From contig JAJVIO010000008.1 in NCBI GenBank assembly GCA_022071975.1, forward strand, positions 124,001-188,000: a DNA stretch of 64,000 bases. The letters are read 5' to 3'. This DNA comes from Planctomycetota bacterium (lineage in GTDB: Bacteria; Planctomycetota; UBA8742; UBA2392). Under the pieces are notes generated by a model. The model had not been told where the DNA came from and did not search any database. It saw nothing but the letters and a program-made list of their open reading frames with translations. A program made the position numbers and the translations under genes. Positions 30,605-52,827 of the stretch are shown in pieces (the stretch's first letter is position 1; the number at the start of each line of letters is the position of its first letter).

Positions 30605-31918
30605 CTACTTGTACAGCTCTTTCAACAGCAGGTCGCCGGCCTTCAGCAGCCGCTGGTCCATGCTGCTGGCCGCAAGCGGCAGCAGGTTGGCGCGGGTTTC
30701 CTTGCGGTACTTCTCGATCTCTTCGGTGCTGCGGCCGGAAGTCGGCAGGCAGCGCAGGTTGTGCACGCGGTCGCACATCTTGACGGCCTTGATCCAGCCG
30801 GGCGCGCGGCGCAGGCCTTCGTAGTAGCGCTCAAGGCCCAGTTCTTTGGGTGTGCCGTCGCGCTTGTACATCTTGGTCAGCAGCACCACGGCGCCGGAGA
30901 CGTTGTCGCCAAAGGCCTGCGACAGCTGGGCGGGCGTGGTGTTCATGTCGTCTTCCAGCACGTCGTGCAGCAGGGCGGTGATCACCTCGTCGCGCTCGCG
31001 CAACTTCACGTTCTCGACGGCGATCAGCGCGACCTCGAGCGGGTGGGTGGCGTAGGGCAAGCCGCCGTCGCGGGTCTGGCCGGCGTGGGCGCGGTACATC
31101 AGCTCAAGCGCGCGCGTCACGTCGCGGTGAAGGCCGGGCTCGAGCTGGTTCAACAGGCGCTTCTCCAGCGGTTCGCACTCGGGCGGGCGGCTGACCTTGA
31201 GTTCCGTCTCCGGCGGGGCCGCGGGCTTATCGTCGCCGCGGTGGCGTTTCTCCATGACGCGGCGGATGTCCTCGAAGCTGATGTCCTTCTGCACCATCAG
31301 CACCATCAGGTGGAACACCAGGTCGCACATCTCGCCGACCAGCTCGCTGCGCTTTTCTCCCTTGGCGGCGATGATCGTCTCGGTGGCTTCTTCGCCCAGC
31401 TTCTTGAGGATCTTGTCGAGCCCCTTGGTGAAGAGGTAGGTGCTGTAGCTGCCCTCGGGCAGCTTGGTCTTGCGCTCCTGCAGCAGCGTGCGCACGTCGT
31501 CCATCAGCGCGCCGAAGCGCGCACCCCAGCCAAGCGCGGGCTGTTCCGCCTGCTCGATTTCGCTGAGCACCGCCTTGTTCTTGAACACCGTCTGGAAGAA
31601 GCAGTCGCCTTCGCCGGTGTGGCAGGCCGGGCCGTCCGGCAGCACGCGCGCCACCAGCGCGTCACCGTCGCAATCCAGCTTCAGCTCGGCCACGCGCATG
31701 GTGTTGCCGCTGGATTCCCCCTTCACCCACAGCTGCTTGCGGCTGCGCGACCAGAAGGTGACCAGTCCGGTCTCGAGCGTCTTGCGGAAGGCCGCCAGGT
31801 TCATCCACGCCAGCGTCAGCACCTCGCCCGTGCGCGCGTCCTGCATGATGCAGGGGATCAGGCCGCTGCTGTCGAACTTCAGGCCTTCAACGGGTGCTTG
31901 TTCAGTGAAGTCGCTCAT
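30605..31918 (-). CDS. hisIE: HisI-HisE bifunctional enzyme fused to a C-terminal SpoT/MESH1-like HD hydrolase domain
   Basis: HisI (MNLAAFRKTLETGLVTFWSRSRKQLWVKGESSGN), HisE (GEEATETIIAAKGE), then H-HD-ED-DRxHN: AHAGQTRDGGLPYATHPLEVALI..ALLHDVLEDD..LTKM..KAVKMCDRVHNLR. Confidence 0.92.
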   Translation of the reverse strand: MSDFTEQAPVEGLKFDSSGLIPCIMQDARTGEVLTLAWMNLAAFRKTLETGLVTFWSRSRKQLWVKGESSGNTMRVAELKLDCDGDALVARVLPDGPACHTGEGDCFFQTVFKNKAVLSEIEQAEQPALGWGARFGALMDDVRTLLQERKTKLPEGSYSTYLFTKGLDKILKKLGEEATETIIAAKGEKRSELVGEMCDLVFHLMVLMVQKDISFEDIRRVMEKRHRGDDKPAAPPETELKVSRPPECEPLEKRLLNQLEPGLHRDVTRALELMYRAHAGQTRDGGLPYATHPLEVALIAVENVKLRERDEVITALLHDVLEDDMNTTPAQLSQAFGDNVSGAVVLLTKMYKRDGTPKELGLERYYEGLRRAPGWIKAVKMCDRVHNLRCLPTSGRSTEEIEKYRKETRANLLPLAASSMDQRLLKAGDLLLKELYK

Positions 31919-31960: not shown

Positions 31961-32737
31961 CTACGCCAGCGCTGTCATCTCGACCGGTCTGATGTTGAAG
32001 CTCTGGCTGCGTAAAAACTCCTTCGCTTCCCTGACCGTGTGCTGCCCGAAGTGAAAGATGCCGGCCGCGAGCACCGCCGCCGCGCCTGCTTTCAGCCCTT
32101 CGGCCAGATGCTCCAGTCTACCAACCCCGCCGGAAGCTATCACCGGGACGGCAACCAGCGCGGCGGCCTTGCGGGTCAGCTCGAGGTCAAAGCCTTCGCC
32201 CGTGCCGTCGCGGTCCATGCTGGTGAGCAAAATCTCGCCGGCGCCCAGCTCGACGCCACTCTTGATCCACTTCAACGCGTCCATGCCCGTGTCTTCACGG
32301 CCGCCTTTCACGTAGACGTGATAGCTGCTGTCCGGCTGTTTGCGCGCGTCCACGGCCAGCACCACGGCCTGCTTGCCGAAACGCGCGGCGCAGTCGCGGA
32401 TCAATTGCGGGTTCTTCACGGCCGCGCTGTTGATGGCGACCTTGTCTGCGCCCGCGCGCAGCAGGCGCTCAAAGTCTTCCACGCTGCGCACGCCGCCGCC
32501 GATGGTGAACGGGATGCTGAGTTCGAGGGCGCAACGCCGGGCGAGTTCCACGGTGGTGTCGCGGTTTTCGTGGCTGGCGGTGATGTCCAGGAACACCAGC
32601 TCGTCCGCCTGTTCGCGGTCGTAGCGCACGGCGCATTCGACGGGGTCGCCGGCGTCGCGCAGGCCGACGAAATTGACGCCCTTCACGACGCGGCCGTCTT
32701 TCACGTCGAGGCACACAATCAGTCGTTTTGCGAGCAT
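31961..32737 (-). CDS. hisF: imidazole glycerol phosphate synthase subunit HisF
   Basis: [34 protein letters not shown]. Confidence 0.96.
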
Positions 32738-32854: not shown

Positions 32855-33622
32855 CTAGCTGCGAGCCGCGAGGCCGGCCTTGGCGTATTCGAGCGCCTGC
32901 TCGTAACTGAACTCGCCCTGCATCAGCGGCTTGCCCACCAGCACGCCGGAGATGCCCTCGGTGGCGGCGGCCGCCTTGATGTGGTCCAGCGTCTGCACGC
33001 CGCCGGTGATGATCACGTCGCCGCCGATCTGCGCGGCCTCGGCGACGCTGGGGCCGTTGCCGCGCGCGTCGGCCGAGACGTCCTGGAAGATGAAATGTTT
33101 CACGCCCGCCTCGCGCACCTTGGCTGCAACCTGCGCTGGGGTGGCCTTGGAGTCCTTGATCCAGTCCTGCGCGACCATGCGGCCGTTCTTGACGTCGATG
33201 AAAATCACCACCGCGTCGGCCGCGTGCTTGACGGCGGCCTGCACGAGCGCCGGGTTCTGCATGGCGGCGCTGCCGATGGCGGCGCGCCTGATGCCGAGCG
33301 AGGTGACCATCTGGAAACTCTCCAGGTCGCGCACGCCGCCGCTGACCTGCACGGTGATGTCAAAGGTCTTGGCAAGCTCACCCATCACGGACAGGTTGCG
33401 CTCGGCACCGGCCAGCACGCTGCCGGAGTGCTCAGCCTGGCTTACGATGAAAGGGCCGTCCAGGTTGTAGAGGTGGATCATGCCCGCGCCGGCTTCGACA
33501 AACTTGCGGACGAAGCCGATGGGCTCAACCCGGTTGGCGCGGGTGCCCATGCCCACGGACTCATAGCGCAGGGCCATGCCGCCGCGCAGCTCGATTGCCG
33601 GGATCACCTGGAAGTCGCTCAT
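32855..33622 (-). CDS. divergent HisA-like (beta/alpha)8 barrel paralog
   Basis: MSDFQVIPAIELRGGMALRY...QVSGGVRDLES...FIDVKNGR...ITGGVQTLDHI. Confidence 0.8.
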   Translation of the reverse strand: MSDFQVIPAIELRGGMALRYESVGMGTRANRVEPIGFVRKFVEAGAGMIHLYNLDGPFIVSQAEHSGSVLAGAERNLSVMGELAKTFDITVQVSGGVRDLESFQMVTSLGIRRAAIGSAAMQNPALVQAAVKHAADAVVIFIDVKNGRMVAQDWIKDSKATPAQVAAKVREAGVKHFIFQDVSADARGNGPSVAEAAQIGGDVIITGGVQTLDHIKAAAATEGISGVLVGKPLMQGEFSYEQALEYAKAGLAARS

Positions 33623-34356
33623 GTTCGCTGTCCTTTCGCGGCCTGCAGAGCCTGTCTAACCGTAAATCGCCCTTCATACAACGCCTTGCCGATGATCAAG
33701 CCGTCAACCCCGCCGCCGATGGTTGCGGCCGCGGTCACATGCGCAAGGCTGCCGACGCCGCCGGAGGCTATCACCGCGGCCCCTTTCTGCGCCAGCTTGC
33801 ACGCGCCCTGAAGATCAGGCCCGATCAGCATGCCGTCACGGGCGATGTCGGTATAGATGAAACGGGAGACTCCGGCCTCCACCATTCGCTTCGCCAACTC
33901 AATGGCTGAGACTTCGCTGGTTTTCACCCAGCCCTCGACGGCCACCATGCCGTCCCGGGCGTCGATGCCTACGGCAATCCGGTCGCCGAACTCGGCGGTC
34001 AACTCGCGTACCAACTCAGGTTGGCGCAGGGCCACGGTGCCGAGGATGACGCGTTTTACTCCGCGCTTGAGCGCTTGCTCTACGTCGGCCCGGCTGCGCA
34101 GGCCGCCGCCGAACTCGACCGGGATCTCGACTGTGTTACAGATCGCACGCAGCACGGCCAGGTTTTCGCCCGCTTCGCCGAATGCGCCGTCCAGGTTCAC
34201 CACGTGCAGCCAGCGCGCGCCCTGGGCGGCGAAGTCGCGGGCGACCTCGGTGGCATCTTCGGCGTAGGTGGTTTCGGCGTCGGCGCGGCCCTGCTGCAGG
34301 CGCACCACGCGCCCCTGGCGCAGGTCGATGGCGGGATAGATCGTGAAGTCGCTCAT
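33619..34356 (-). CDS. hisA: ProFAR isomerase HisA
   Basis: MSDFTIYPAIDLRQGRVVRLQQGR...EFGGGLRSRADVE...YTDIARDGM. Confidence 0.95.
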   Translation of the reverse strand: MSDFTIYPAIDLRQGRVVRLQQGRADAETTYAEDATEVARDFAAQGARWLHVVNLDGAFGEAGENLAVLRAICNTVEIPVEFGGGLRSRADVEQALKRGVKRVILGTVALRQPELVRELTAEFGDRIAVGIDARDGMVAVEGWVKTSEVSAIELAKRMVEAGVSRFIYTDIARDGMLIGPDLQGACKLAQKGAAVIASGGVGSLAHVTAAATIGGGVDGLIIGKALYEGRFTVRQALQAAKGQRT

Positions 34357-34924
34357 AGCTTCAGGAAATTCTCCAGCAGTCTGGCGCCGCAGCGCTGGCT
34401 CTTTTCGGGGTGGGCCTGGATGCCGCGCACGTTGCCGCGCCGCACCACGCTGCAGAAGGTCTCGCCGTAATCGGTTTCGCCCAGCACATCCGCGCGCTCG
34501 GCCGGCTCGCACACGAAGCTGTGCACGAAGTAGAAGAAGGCTTCTTCCGGCAAGTTTTCCAGCAGCGGGTCGGCCTTTCGCGGCAGAATGCGGTTCCAGC
34601 CCATGTGCGGCACCGGGTTGGCGCCCGCCCTGATTTCGCGCACGCGGCCGGGGATCAGCCCCAGGCCGGGGGTCTTCTCGAACTCCTCACCAGTTTCAAA
34701 CAGCAACTGCATGCCGAGGCAGATGCCCAGCAAGGGCCTGCCGGATCCCGCGAACTCGCGGATTGCGGCCGTGAAGCCGCGCTCGTTCAGGGCCTGCATG
34801 CCGGCCGGGAAGCTGCCCACTCCCGGCAGCAGCAGGCGCTCGGCGCTTGTGACGGCCGCCGCTTCCGTGCACGCGAAATGCTGCCCAGGTTGCAGATGCC
34901 GGAATCAATGATGGTGACGTTCAT
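34353..34924 (-). pseudogene. hisH: imidazole glycerol phosphate synthase subunit HisH with apparent N-terminal deletion/frameshift
   Basis: N-term MNVTIIDSGICNLGSISRA in one frame, remainder ...EAAAVTSAERLLLPGVGSFPAGMQALNERGF..GICLGMQLLFE..GIQAHPEKS in another. Confidence 0.8.
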
Positions 34925-34933
34925 GGCAGCTTA

Positions 34934-35030
34934 GGGGACTGTCCCCGTTTTTGGGGACTCTCCTCGCCCTCGAAACTCGAACTGTTCTCCCAAACGGGGA
35001 CAGTCCCCAACTGCGGGGACAGTCCCCTAC
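34934..35030. repeat. REP-like palindrome cluster, family C (GGGGACTGTCCCC)
   Basis: GGGGACAGTCCCCAACTGCGGGGACAGTCCCCTAC at 34996-35030 plus GGGGACTGTCCCC at 34934-34946. Confidence 0.85.
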
Positions 35031-35614
35031 AGCACTCCCTTGGTGCTGGGCACGCCCTTGCGCCGGGCGTCGTAATCGAGCGCAAACCGTAACGCACGCG
35101 TGACCGCCTTGAACACGCCCTCAATAATGTGGTGCGTGTCGTCGCCGCGCAGCACGTCGATGTGCAGGTTCATGGGGAAGTGCGTGCTGAAGCTGCGCCA
35201 GAAGTGCTCGACCATTTCCGTGGGCAGGCCCCCCACCTCTTCGCGTTTCAGCTGCCCCAGCTCGCACACCAGGAACGGACGGCCACTGAGGTCAAGCGCG
35301 CAGCGGATCAACGCCTCATCCATGGGGATCAGGCTGCTGCCGTAGCGGTTGATGCCGGCCTTGTCGCCGGCCGCCTGCTTGAAGGCTTCGCCGATCGCGA
35401 TGGCAATGTCCTCCACGCTGTGGTGGGCGTCCACGTGCAGGTCGCCGGTGCAGTTGACGGTCAGGTCGAACAGGCCGTGTTTGCTGAACAGTTCCAGCAT
35501 GTGGTTCAGGAAGCCGATGCCGGTCTGTACGGCATACTTGCCCTCGCCATCGAGGTTGACCTCGACGGCGATCTGCGTCTCGGAAGTCTTGCGGCTGTAG
35601 CTGGCTGTTCGCAT
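35027..35614 (-). CDS. hisB: imidazoleglycerol-phosphate dehydratase
   Basis: TGIGFLNHMLELFSKHG; DLHVDAHHSVEDIAIAIGEA. Confidence 0.95.
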   Translation of the reverse strand: MRTASYSRKTSETQIAVEVNLDGEGKYAVQTGIGFLNHMLELFSKHGLFDLTVNCTGDLHVDAHHSVEDIAIAIGEAFKQAAGDKAGINRYGSSLIPMDEALIRCALDLSGRPFLVCELGQLKREEVGGLPTEMVEHFWRSFSTHFPMNLHIDVLRGDDTHHIIEGVFKAVTRALRFALDYDARRKGVPSTKGVL

Positions 35615-35633
35615 AGGCCGGTCCAGATCTCGC

Positions 35634-35657
35634 GGGCGAGGCAAGCCTCGCCCCTAC
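35634..35657. repeat. REP-like palindrome, family D (GGGCGAGGC-AA-GCCTCGCCC-CTAC)
   Basis: 20-bp palindrome followed by CTAC; the CTA is the hisC stop codon. Confidence 0.8.
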
Positions 35658-36730
35658 CCCACCACTGTCATCGCATACTCGAGCGCCTTCAGGAAGGCGT
35701 CGTTTTCTTCGGGCCGGCCGATACTTACGCGCAGGGCCTTGCCCAGGCGCGGGTAGCCGCTGACGTCACGGATCAGCACGCCGCGGCTGACCATGGCTTT
35801 CCAGATGTCGCGCGGCGCGCGCTCGGTTTCGAACAGCAGAAAATTCGCGCGGCTGGGGTACACCTTCACGCCTGTGTACTCGCGCAGCTTGCGGGCCACG
35901 CGCTCGCGTTCACGCTTGGTTTCTTCCACGCGGGCCTTCAGCGTCACCGCGTTCTCGATCGCCGTCTCCACGGCCGCCATGGTGAAGATGTTGAGGTTGT
36001 AGGGCAGCTTGGCCGCCGCGAAAATCGGCCTCGCTTCCGGGTGGCAGACCATGCAGCCGAAGCGCAGGCCGGCCGTGGCCAGCGCCTTGCTGAAGGTGCG
36101 CAGCACCACCAGGTTGCGGCAGTGGCGGGTGAGCTCCAACGCCGTTTCGCCGTGGAACTCGAAGTAGGCTTCGTCCACCACCCACAGGGCGGCGCTGGTG
36201 TTGACCAGGTGCTCAAGGTCCGTCGGGTCGATCACACTGCCAGTCGGGTTGTTGGGCGTGGCCAGCACCACCACGGAGGCGTCGGCGGCCGCTTCTTCCA
36301 GCGCGGCGGCGTTGTACTGCAGCTCGTCGTTGAGCCCGGCAGTGACCACCTCGGCGCCAAGCAGGTCCGCCAGCAGCTTGTATACCGTAAAGGTGGGCTG
36401 CGGGATCACCACTTTGCGCCCGCGCTCGAGGGTGCTGACGAACACGGCGTACAGCAGCTCGTTGGAGCCGTTGCCCGCCAGCACCTGGTTGGCGTCCGCA
36501 CCGATGTGCGCGGCCACCTTGGCCAGAAACGCGTCGGGCACGAACGGTGGGTAGCGGTTCCAGGGCAGGTCGCGCACGCGCTCGAACACTTCCTGCTTCA
36601 GCGCGGCCGGCCAGTCCCAGGCGTTTTCGTTCTGGTTCAGCTTGACCGGGCAGTCCGGCACATCAAGCGTGTAGCCGCCGGCCAGGCCGGGCAGCTGCGT
36701 CTTGAAGTACTTGAGCGTGGTGTTGTCCAT
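35654..36730 (-). CDS. hisC: histidinol-phosphate aminotransferase
   Basis: KLNQNENAWDWP; ATPNNPTGSVI; RTFSKALATAGLRFG. Confidence 0.94.
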   Translation of the reverse strand: MDNTTLKYFKTQLPGLAGGYTLDVPDCPVKLNQNENAWDWPAALKQEVFERVRDLPWNRYPPFVPDAFLAKVAAHIGADANQVLAGNGSNELLYAVFVSTLERGRKVVIPQPTFTVYKLLADLLGAEVVTAGLNDELQYNAAALEEAAADASVVVLATPNNPTGSVIDPTDLEHLVNTSAALWVVDEAYFEFHGETALELTRHCRNLVVLRTFSKALATAGLRFGCMVCHPEARPIFAAAKLPYNLNIFTMAAVETAIENAVTLKARVEETKRERERVARKLREYTGVKVYPSRANFLLFETERAPRDIWKAMVSRGVLIRDVSGYPRLGKALRVSIGRPEENDAFLKALEYAMTVVG

Positions 36731-36736
36731 GAACGC

Positions 36737-38134
36737 CTAGAGCCGCTTCTCGATGCTGCGGGCGTGGGCCTCCAGCTGCTCGGCCCGCGCCAGCTTGATG
36801 GCCGCTTCCTTGTTTGCCGCCAGCAACTCTTTGCTGCCGCGGATGACGCTGACGTGCCGCACGAAGTCGTCCACACCCAAGGCGCTGGCCCAACGCGCGC
36901 TGCCGGCCGTGGGCAGCACGTGGTTGGGGCCGGCGTTGTAGTCGCCGAAGGCCTCGGGCGCCCAGGGGCCGATGAAGACGGCGCCGGCGTTGCGGATCTG
37001 CTTGGCGTCGTTCTCGGCGTCTTCGGTCAGCACTTCGCAGTGCTCCGGCGCGATCGAATCCGCCAGCCGGATCGCGAAGCCCTTGCTCGGCACGGTGATG
37101 ATGCCGCCGTAGGAGGCGAACGAGCTCTCGATGATGCTCTTGCGCGGCAGGTCGGCCAGTTGCTTCGCGACCTCCGCCTTCACCTTCTCGGCGGCCTCGC
37201 TGCTGTCGGTAATGGCGACCGCCGAGGCGTGCTCGTCGTGCTCGGCCTGGGCCAGCATGTCCGCGGCCACCATGGCCGGGTCGGCCGAGGCGTCGAAGAT
37301 GATCACGATTTCAGACGGGCCGGCAAAGCTGTCGATGCCCACACGGCCGCTGAGCATCTGCTTGGCGATGGCCACGAAGATGTTGCCGGGGCCGACGATC
37401 TTGTCCACCTTGGCGATCTTCTCGGTGCCGATGGCGGCGGCGGCGATGGCCTGGGCGCCGCCCACGCGATAGACCTCGGTAATGCCGAGCTCAGTGATCA
37501 GCGCGCAGAGCTCGGGCGATTTCTCCAGCGTCTCCGGCGGCGTGAACACGGCGATTTCCTGCACGCCCGCCACCTGGGCGGGAATCGCGGTCATCATGAG
37601 TGTGCTGGGGTAGCTGGCGGTACCGCCCGGGATGTACAGGCCGACGCGCCGCAATGGCTGCACGCGGATGCCGACCGAGCCGCCGTTATCGTCGATCTGC
37701 CAGGATGCGGTTTTCTGCTTCTCATGGAACTTGCGCAGGCGCGGGATGATCTGCCCGGTGCACAGCTTGATCAACTCTTCGTTCGCGCCGTCGGCCCCTT
37801 TCATCAGGTCGAGCTTGTTGACCTGGATGCGGTTGGTCGGCAGTTCCTGGCCGTCGAACAGCCGCGCGCAGTGGCGCACGCCGTCGTCGCGCAGCTGCTG
37901 GACTTTCTCGATCACGCGCTCGACCGTGGCCGAGGCCGTGTGGGGCAGGCCTTCGTAGAAGCTCTCGGCAAAGGCGATGAACTCGCTGTCGCCGCTGTCC
38001 TTGGCGCGCTGCAGCAACTCGCCGGGTTTGGTTCCCAGCGAGACGTCGCCGGTTTCCGCCCGCGCGCTCAGCCGCTTCTGCAGGGCGGTGAACTCTTCGG
38101 TGCCGATTTCATAGATCTTCAGCGAGTCTGTCAT
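36737..38134 (-). CDS. hisD: histidinol dehydrogenase
   Basis: VGLYIPGGTASYPSTLMMTAIPAQVAGV; VDSFAGPSEI. Confidence 0.95.
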   Translation of the reverse strand: MTDSLKIYEIGTEEFTALQKRLSARAETGDVSLGTKPGELLQRAKDSGDSEFIAFAESFYEGLPHTASATVERVIEKVQQLRDDGVRHCARLFDGQELPTNRIQVNKLDLMKGADGANEELIKLCTGQIIPRLRKFHEKQKTASWQIDDNGGSVGIRVQPLRRVGLYIPGGTASYPSTLMMTAIPAQVAGVQEIAVFTPPETLEKSPELCALITELGITEVYRVGGAQAIAAAAIGTEKIAKVDKIVGPGNIFVAIAKQMLSGRVGIDSFAGPSEIVIIFDASADPAMVAADMLAQAEHDEHASAVAITDSSEAAEKVKAEVAKQLADLPRKSIIESSFASYGGIITVPSKGFAIRLADSIAPEHCEVLTEDAENDAKQIRNAGAVFIGPWAPEAFGDYNAGPNHVLPTAGSARWASALGVDDFVRHVSVIRGSKELLAANKEAAIKLARAEQLEAHARSIEKRL

Positions 38135-38136
38135 TT

Positions 38137-38772
38137 TCAGCCCCCTTCGACGGCCTGTTTCAGGTTATCCAGCAGTTCGCGCAACTCGGTCAACCTGGCG
38201 TACCACGCCGCGCGGTTCACGGCCAGGCGCGCGCTGCACTCCGCGATTTCCTCGTGAACGACCAGCCCGTTTTCTTTCAGCGTCGTGCCGGTTTCAACGA
38301 TGTCGACAATGTAGTGTGAAAGCCCCAGCACCGCACCGATTTCCACGCTGCCCGAAAGCTTGAACACCGTGCAGGGCGTGCCCTTCTTCCGGAAGTGGTT
38401 CTGCGCCACGCGCGGGAACTTGCTGGCCACGCGCACCGGCGACAGCAGGTTATCCAGACGCCGCTCGATCTCGGGGCGCCCGGCAACCACCATGCGGCAG
38501 CGGCTGATGCCGAGGTCCAGGGGCTCAAGCAGGTCGGCCCCCACCTCCATCAGCACGTCCTTGCCGCAGATGCCTACCTCGGCCACGCCCTGCTCAATGT
38601 ACAGCGGCGCGTCCACCGGTTTCACCAGCAGGTACTCGAGGCGGCCGCACTTGCTGGGCACCAGCAGCTTGCGCGTGTCCGACAGCGACTCGACGGGCGC
38701 GTAGCCCGCCCTGTCCAGCAGCGGCGCGGCCTGTTTGAGGGTACGGCCGGTTGGCACTGCCATGCGCAGCAT
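38137..38772 (-). CDS. hisG: ATP phosphoribosyltransferase (short form)
   Basis: 211 aa short HisG: VPTGRTLKQAAPLLDRAGY; GICGKDVLME; VDIVETGTTLKENGL. Confidence 0.94.
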   Translation of the reverse strand: MLRMAVPTGRTLKQAAPLLDRAGYAPVESLSDTRKLLVPSKCGRLEYLLVKPVDAPLYIEQGVAEVGICGKDVLMEVGADLLEPLDLGISRCRMVVAGRPEIERRLDNLLSPVRVASKFPRVAQNHFRKKGTPCTVFKLSGSVEIGAVLGLSHYIVDIVETGTTLKENGLVVHEEIAECSARLAVNRAAWYARLTELRELLDNLKQAVEGG

Positions 38773-39857
38773 CAGGCGCCCCCTTCCAGCTGCACGGGCT
38801 TGCCCGATGCTCGCAGCTCGTGGATGCGCTTCAACGCGGCCGAGCCTTCCTTGTCATTCACCCGCTGCGGAGTTGCCGGCGCGAAGCCGCCCTGTGACGC
38901 AGCCTCGGCCAGGCGTGCCAGGTTGAAACCGAAGCCGACGGCCGGCACGTCCATGTTGAAGCGGTCGAACAGGCGGTCGTAACGGCCGCCGCCGCCGAGT
39001 TCTTCGCCCACAGACTCGTGGTAAATCTGGAACATGAAGCCGCTGTAGTAATCCGAACGCCGCTCTTCGCCCAGGTCGATCAGCACCCGGTCCGATGCCC
39101 CGGCGTCGCGCAGCAGCGCGTACAGGCCTTCCAGCTCGGAGAGCGCGGCGTCCGCCGGCGGCGACAGCTTAAACGCGCGTGCCGCCTGGAACACCTCCGG
39201 CCCGCCGGTCAGCAGCGGGAGCGCTTCCAGCAATGCAGCCGTATCGGCATCCAGGCCGACGCGCTGGCAGAGCTGCTGGATGCGGCTCGGGTTCTTGTGG
39301 TCAAGCGCCTCATACAGGCGACGCTCACGGCGGCCGGCCTCGCCCAGCACCGCGTGGATGAAGCCGGCGTGGCCGACCACGGTGATCGCATCGCCGGCGC
39401 CGGCGGCATCGAGGCTCTCGCGCACCATCATCAGCGCGGCCGCGTCGTACACGGCGCCCTGGGCGTTCAGCCACTCCAGGCCGCGCTGGGTCTGCTCGAC
39501 GCGGTGGCCGTGGCCGCTGGGGGCGAAGCGGTAGACGCGCCCCTCGTAGCTGGCGCGGATCTGGCGGGGTTCGCGGCGCAGCTCGAGCGCCAGGGCCTTG
39601 GCGGCGATCAGCGTGAAGTCGGCGCGCAGGGTCAGGCGGCGGCCTTCGCGGTCCACCAGGTGATAGAGTTCCGTTTCCTCGCCGGCCTCGGCAAAGGTTT
39701 CCGCGCTGTCGAACGCGGGCAGGATGATCTCGGTGAAGCCCCAGCCCCGAAACACGGCCGCTATGCGCTCGCTGATGAACTGCCGGCGCGCGGCCTGAGG
39801 GCCGAACACGAGTTCGGTCCCGGGCGGGAAAGAAAGCTGCCTGGCATCACCGGGCAT
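38772..39857 (-). CDS. hisZ: ATP phosphoribosyltransferase regulatory subunit
   Basis: HisRS-like catalytic-core homolog next to short hisG. Confidence 0.88.
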   Translation of the reverse strand: MPGDARQLSFPPGTELVFGPQAARRQFISERIAAVFRGWGFTEIILPAFDSAETFAEAGEETELYHLVDREGRRLTLRADFTLIAAKALALELRREPRQIRASYEGRVYRFAPSGHGHRVEQTQRGLEWLNAQGAVYDAAALMMVRESLDAAGAGDAITVVGHAGFIHAVLGEAGRRERRLYEALDHKNPSRIQQLCQRVGLDADTAALLEALPLLTGGPEVFQAARAFKLSPPADAALSELEGLYALLRDAGASDRVLIDLGEERRSDYYSGFMFQIYHESVGEELGGGGRYDRLFDRFNMDVPAVGFGFNLARLAEAASQGGFAPATPQRVNDKEGSAALKRIHELRASGKPVQLEGGA

Positions 39858-52795: not shown

Positions 52796-52827
52796 GGGGA
52801 CAGTCCCCAACTGCGGGGACAGTCCCC
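52796..52827. repeat. REP-like doublet, family C
   Basis: GGGGACAGTCCCCAACTGCGGGGACAGTCCCC identical to 34996-35027. Confidence 0.88.

Follow-up and report, generated by a model that had tools for sequence, protein, structure and literature searches.

A HisIE histidine biosynthesis protein fused to an alarmone hydrolase-type HD domain in a family of uncultured Planctomycetota

The final histidine gene in a 64,000-nucleotide stretch of Planctomycetota DNA (hereafter the window) encodes HisI and HisE followed, in the same polypeptide, by a hydrolase domain of the small alarmone hydrolase (SAH)/SpoT/MESH1 type (HD_4), and this three-domain protein is conserved throughout the host family. We put at roughly 0.58 the probability that it is a trifunctional enzyme, in which HisI and HisE would be joined by a domain predicted, from its residues and modelled fold, to be an active, Mn-dependent enzyme with relaxed specificity, a 3'(2')-(pyro)phosphohydrolase of purine nucleotides. 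The architecture, its clade-wide conservation, the operon position, the invariant catalytic residues, the predicted fold, and the absent synthetase are established directly, and we infer the activity and substrate of the fused HD and its coupling to histidine synthesis. A survey of his gene fusions lists only hisA/hisF, hisIE, hisHF, hisNB, and hisIED (PMC1963479), and a HisIE-HD protein was not found described in the open full-text literature; the parts are known, and their combination appears to be new. The fusion links an alarmone hydrolase-type enzyme with a single metabolic pathway in bacteria without the matching synthetase, so that one recombinant protein would allow a direct test of what orphan alarmone hydrolases do.

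Domain architecture and conserved residues

The gene, named here hisIE-HD, is a single open reading frame that begins with an ATG at 31918, stops at 30607-30605, and has no internal stop over its 437 codons (Table 1). The initial annotation had described HisI and HisE fused to a SpoT/MESH1-like HD domain, which is borne out by Pfam and NCBIfam: the first half of the protein is a HisIE equivalog (239 bits, cut-off 187), with PRA-CH and PRA-PH both over their curated cut-offs, and the HD_4 Pfam core covers residues 270-410 (54.4 bits against a gathering cut-off of 27.2). The interval 30605-31918 proved exact, no missed stop separates the domains, and the HD motifs that had been quoted (HAGQTRDGGLPYATHP, LLHDVLEDD, LTK, and KMCDRVHN) recur letter for letter in the translated frame.

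Both histidine domains keep their signature residues across 16 homologues. In HisI, D82, C83, D84, D86, C99, H100, and C106 are invariant, so that the metal site (DCDGD with C83/C99/C106) is retained, at a spacing that we take to be that of solved HisI. In HisE, the invariant residues are E176, E177, E180, E196, and D199, which preserve GEExxE...ExxD. As far as its sequence can tell, the HisE domain looks intact, and therefore a second PR-ATP hydrolase would not be needed. In the third domain, R283, H292, H318, D319, E322, D323, D383, R384, and N387 are invariant in 16/16 sequences, and the catalytic signature of RSH hydrolases and SAHs (R, H, HD, ED, DR..N) is present. These positions match the base-stacking arginine, the metal ligands, and the pair of catalytic acids known from RelSeq, SAH, and MESH1, and alignments with Rel, SAH, and MESH1 agree with the assignment. 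The isolated HD domain was modelled by AF2 with a pLDDT of 95.0, and Foldseek matched this predicted model to the SAH of Pseudomonas aeruginosa (PaSAH, 6yvc; TM 0.82) and to human MESH1 with NADPH (5vxa; TM 0.83), with Thermus (Tth) Rel bound to ppGpp and MESH1-PAPS among the further best matches. The full-length AF2 model, good in the HD part and poor in the HisE part (pTM 0.48), is uninformative on the domain arrangement.

Table 1. Features of the hisIE-HD gene and its histidine operon (positions are those of the window)
Feature	Position	Strand	Basis
hisIE-HD (HisI-HisE-HD_4 fusion), 437 aa	30605..31918	minus	single ORF; Pfam and NCBIfam domains
HisI (PRA-CH) domain, residues 36-108	31595..31813	minus	Pfam PF01502, 104 bits, cut-off 27
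HisE (PRA-PH) domain, residues 141-226	31241..31498	minus	Pfam PF01503, 73.8 bits, cut-off 21.3
Variable linker, residues 228-257 (30 aa)	31148..31237	minus	7/30 positions invariant
HD_4 (SAH/SpoT/MESH1-type) hydrolase region, residues 258-437	30608..31147	minus	Pfam PF13328; AF2 model; Foldseek
hisF, immediately upstream of hisIE-HD	31961..32737	minus	TIGR00735, 339.7 bits; conserved neighbour
hisA	33619..34362	minus	TIGR00007, 253 bits
hisB, hisC, hisD, hisG, hisZ (upstream his operon)	35027..39857	minus	NCBIfam

Distribution, origin, and operon context

The protein is full length and unbroken in all 16 genomes of the host family, which are uncultured Planctomycetota MAGs of 76-94% completeness from six genera, with sequence identities of 66-99%. 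The possibility raised in the initial annotation, that a sequencing error had joined two adjacent reading frames, is excluded, as is an assembly artefact, by the unbroken three-domain frame in these 16 genomes. The fusion was not found in the other 376 of the 392 Planctomycetota genomes sampled, where the next best matches outside the host family were plain HisIE or HisI; its restriction to one family upholds the earlier view that the third domain is not part of a standard architecture. Phyla beyond Planctomycetota were covered by a close-relative scan of contigs, one genome per species, and by a plasmid search: the former gave 12 loci, all from Planctomycetota MAGs and mostly the same genomes, and among the 755 plasmid records that matched, none covered 80% of the protein.

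In the HD tree, the fused domains group in a single clade (support 100/99), and one change suffices to explain the fused/unfused label; therefore, a single fusion with subsequent vertical inheritance would be the simplest reading of the sequences. A long branch of 1.4 changes per site separates the clade from all other HDs sampled, and so the specificity of the fused domain may differ from theirs. A Rosetta-stone trace, in the form of a standalone HD gene beside his genes in other Planctomycetota, was not seen in 20 loci of about 3.4 kb each. Because the whole family has retained the fusion, there is strong evidence for a functional linkage between the domains. The dN/dS of the HD part (about 0.03-0.17) is well under 1 in all pairs tested and in the same range as those of HisI and HisE, and judging by these ratios the HD part is under purifying selection; the linker evolves faster than the domains in most pairs (raised dN). 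A degenerate HD domain is excluded by the invariant residues together with the low dN/dS. It is also barely credible that the HD serves as a non-catalytic scaffold or allosteric domain: fused domains do sometimes serve oligomerization alone, but the catalytic and metal residues are all invariant in 16 sequences with identities of 66-99%, and the domain is under the purifying selection just described.

The start codon of hisIE-HD lies 42 bases past the hisF stop, and upstream on the same strand are hisZ, hisG, hisD, hisC, hisB, hisH, hisA, a second hisA-like gene, and hisF. The fusion is the final his gene, directly after hisF, in all related loci examined, and those that extend far enough share the arrangement of genes as far as hisC or hisD, including the hisD-C-B order. 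An RND transporter gene lies downstream, facing hisIE-HD, in the window and in most related loci.

Several other features of the window were observed. The second HisA-like gene (32855-33622, minus strand), between hisA and hisF, is missing from only one of the 11 related loci covering the interval (present in 10) and scores 126 bits (cut-off 229); in every copy, Glu takes the place of the first catalytic Asp (ELR instead of DLR), and three copies have lost the second Asp as well. A separate TrpF is encoded in 15/16 family genomes, so the gene is not a needed TrpF. The window's hisH (34353-34925, minus strand) has a 34-base gap relative to the near-identical locus L038, in which hisH is an intact 201-aa reading frame; the gap breaks the frame near the N terminus and is either an assembly error or a real mutation. 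The palindrome GGGGACTGTCCCC clusters at 34934-35027 and 52796-52827, with five sites (10 matches on both strands) against 0.12 matches expected, and looks like an extragenic repeat.

Absence of a synthetase and candidate roles of the HD domain

One of the 16 genomes in the family encodes a RelA/SpoT synthetase domain, and the remaining 15 lack it; absence from any single MAG (76-94% complete) is weak evidence, and the 1/16 pattern is stronger. The search was positive in 11/14 control genomes and therefore works, and its scope is the RelA/SpoT-related types; unrelated synthetases would escape it. Across the phylum, the synthetase domain occurs in 15/246 genomes, whereas homologues of the HD domain occur in 99 of the same 246, so that in Planctomycetota it is common to find the hydrolase but no synthetase. 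These counts agree with the reported absence of long RSHs from PVC bacteria (PMC3153485). As 15/16 family genomes lack the synthetase and 15/16 have no HD_4 other than the fused one, the domain is, by gene content, an orphan hydrolase. The family's single protein with a RelA_SpoT synthetase domain (408 aa; L043 1198-2424, genome G012) is perhaps a sporadic acquisition.

The genome content bears on whether the HD is a true (p)ppGpp hydrolase, through which histidine flux would feed back on the stringent response, the synthetase being unrecognised or sporadically acquired, as the 408-aa protein might be. The full Rel-like DRxHNxR motif is retained, Tth Rel with ppGpp ranks among the best structural matches, and ppGpp affects HisG and his transcription in other bacteria (PMC3896937). 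However, with the synthetase domain so rare in both family and phylum, and long RSHs reported missing from PVC bacteria, we regard this role as unlikely. Of the coupling between histidine synthesis and alarmones proposed in the initial annotation, the general idea may hold, whereas its classic ppGpp form is weakened by the 15/16 genomes without a RelA/SpoT synthetase domain. The other role suggested there, disposal of a phosphorylated by-product, is likewise conceivable. Orphan status would also suit a domain that mainly detoxifies foreign (p)ppApp/(p)ppGpp made by the toxic synthetases of competitors, with the housekeeping fusion keeping expression constant. XccSAH, for example, acts preferentially on pppApp and gives protection when cells compete with Pseudomonas (PMC9765508). 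Immunity genes, on the other hand, are usually patchy, whereas the HD fusion is fixed and vertically inherited across the family, which makes such a function highly unlikely.

The operon itself points to another candidate role, that of a pathway enzyme dephosphorylating a histidine intermediate, for which histidinol phosphate (step 8) is the most plausible candidate. Step 8 is the only step without a gene in the operon (hisZ, G, D, C, B, H, A, F, IE), HisB is a 205-aa dehydratase alone, PHP-type HisJ is absent above the cut-off from 16/16 genomes, and HD-type metal enzymes do cleave phosphomonoesters, as MESH1 does on NADPH and CoA (PMC13221220). Yet a HisN-like IMPase (235 bits, below the 275 cut-off) and a DDDD-type phosphatase closer to GmhB are encoded elsewhere, and HisN has been reported from Planctomycetes (PMC5516325); the HD is therefore not needed for step 8, and the idea that the gap in the operon forces this role on it was rejected. 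The domain also retains the purine-nucleotide-binding residues of Rel and SAH, which would be superfluous for a small imidazole substrate, and it falls outside the histidinol phosphatase families (HAD, PHP, and IMPase), with Pfam and NCBIfam giving HD_4 only. Taken as a whole, a step 8 function seems distinctly unlikely.

By analogy with characterized relatives, we consider the fused HD most likely to be a 3'(2')-(pyro)phosphohydrolase that acts on nucleotides with relaxed specificity. In the proposed mechanism, PR-AMP cyclohydrolase (HisI) and PR-ATP pyrophosphohydrolase (HisE) would be followed, in one polypeptide, by a C-terminal SAH-type hydrolase that strips the 3' (or 2') phosphate or pyrophosphate off purine nucleotides. 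Since the host lacks a recognisable RelA/SpoT synthetase, the everyday substrate is probably not home-made stringent-response ppGpp; the candidates, singly or in combination, are (p)ppApp/(p)ppGpp-like nucleotides, NADP(H), CoA, and PAPS-like compounds. Fusion to HisIE would cause the HD to be expressed with the histidine operon and set it beside enzymes handling ATP-derived nucleotides. AMP, ADP, and ppGpp are known inhibitors of HisG, the first histidine enzyme, and, assuming proximity to HisG, the domain may hold these inhibitory nucleotides low near the pathway. In Salmonella, ppGpp together with histidine inhibits HisG (PMC3896937), and local nucleotide clearing would thus be a plausible benefit. 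The range of the proposed substrates has precedents in XccSAH, an orphan SAH that hydrolyses pppApp, (pp)pGpp, and NADPH (PMC9765508), and in MESH1, for which CoA is also a substrate (PMC13221220). More speculatively, and as a rather doubtful proposal, the HD may have been recruited into histidine metabolism in a lineage free of the stringent response, either as a fourth kind of histidinol phosphatase or as a hydrolase acting on a 3'-phosphorylated nucleotide not yet described and linking purine state to histidine flux without RelA/SpoT.

Relation to known enzymes and fusions

Bifunctional HisIE (NCBIfam NF002747; solved as 6j22 and as plant HISN2, 7bgm) shares the HisI-HisE order and signature residues with the protein described here, which differs in having about 210 additional C-terminal residues that make up the third hydrolase domain. 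With the small alarmone hydrolases (PaSAH and XccSAH) and MESH1, the HD has in common the HD_4 family, the metal and catalytic residues, and, in the predicted model, the fold (TM 0.82-0.83). Those enzymes, however, are free-standing single-domain proteins, whereas this HD, at 25-29% identity, makes up the C-terminal end of a biosynthetic enzyme and is always fused to HisIE in the host family. Long Rel/SpoT proteins carry a hydrolase domain with the same DRxHNxR motif but, unlike hisIE-HD, also synthetase, TGS, and ACT domains. Fungal HIS4 (HisIE-HisD) likewise adds a third enzyme at the C terminus of HisIE (PMC1963479); there the third domain is a histidine enzyme, whereas in hisIE-HD it is of the alarmone hydrolase type.

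Other unusual fusions were seen in Planctomycetota. In a different family (L113, L117, L118, L119, and L120), an HD_4 of the same kind is N-terminal, and a SAM-methyltransferase-like part C-terminal, in proteins that reach or exceed about 700 aa and lack a synthetase domain. Among his genes, further single-ORF fusions include HisA-HisI-HisE (L029 817-2070), HisF-HisI (L098 1498-2628, minus strand), and HisA-HisI (L091 670-1866).
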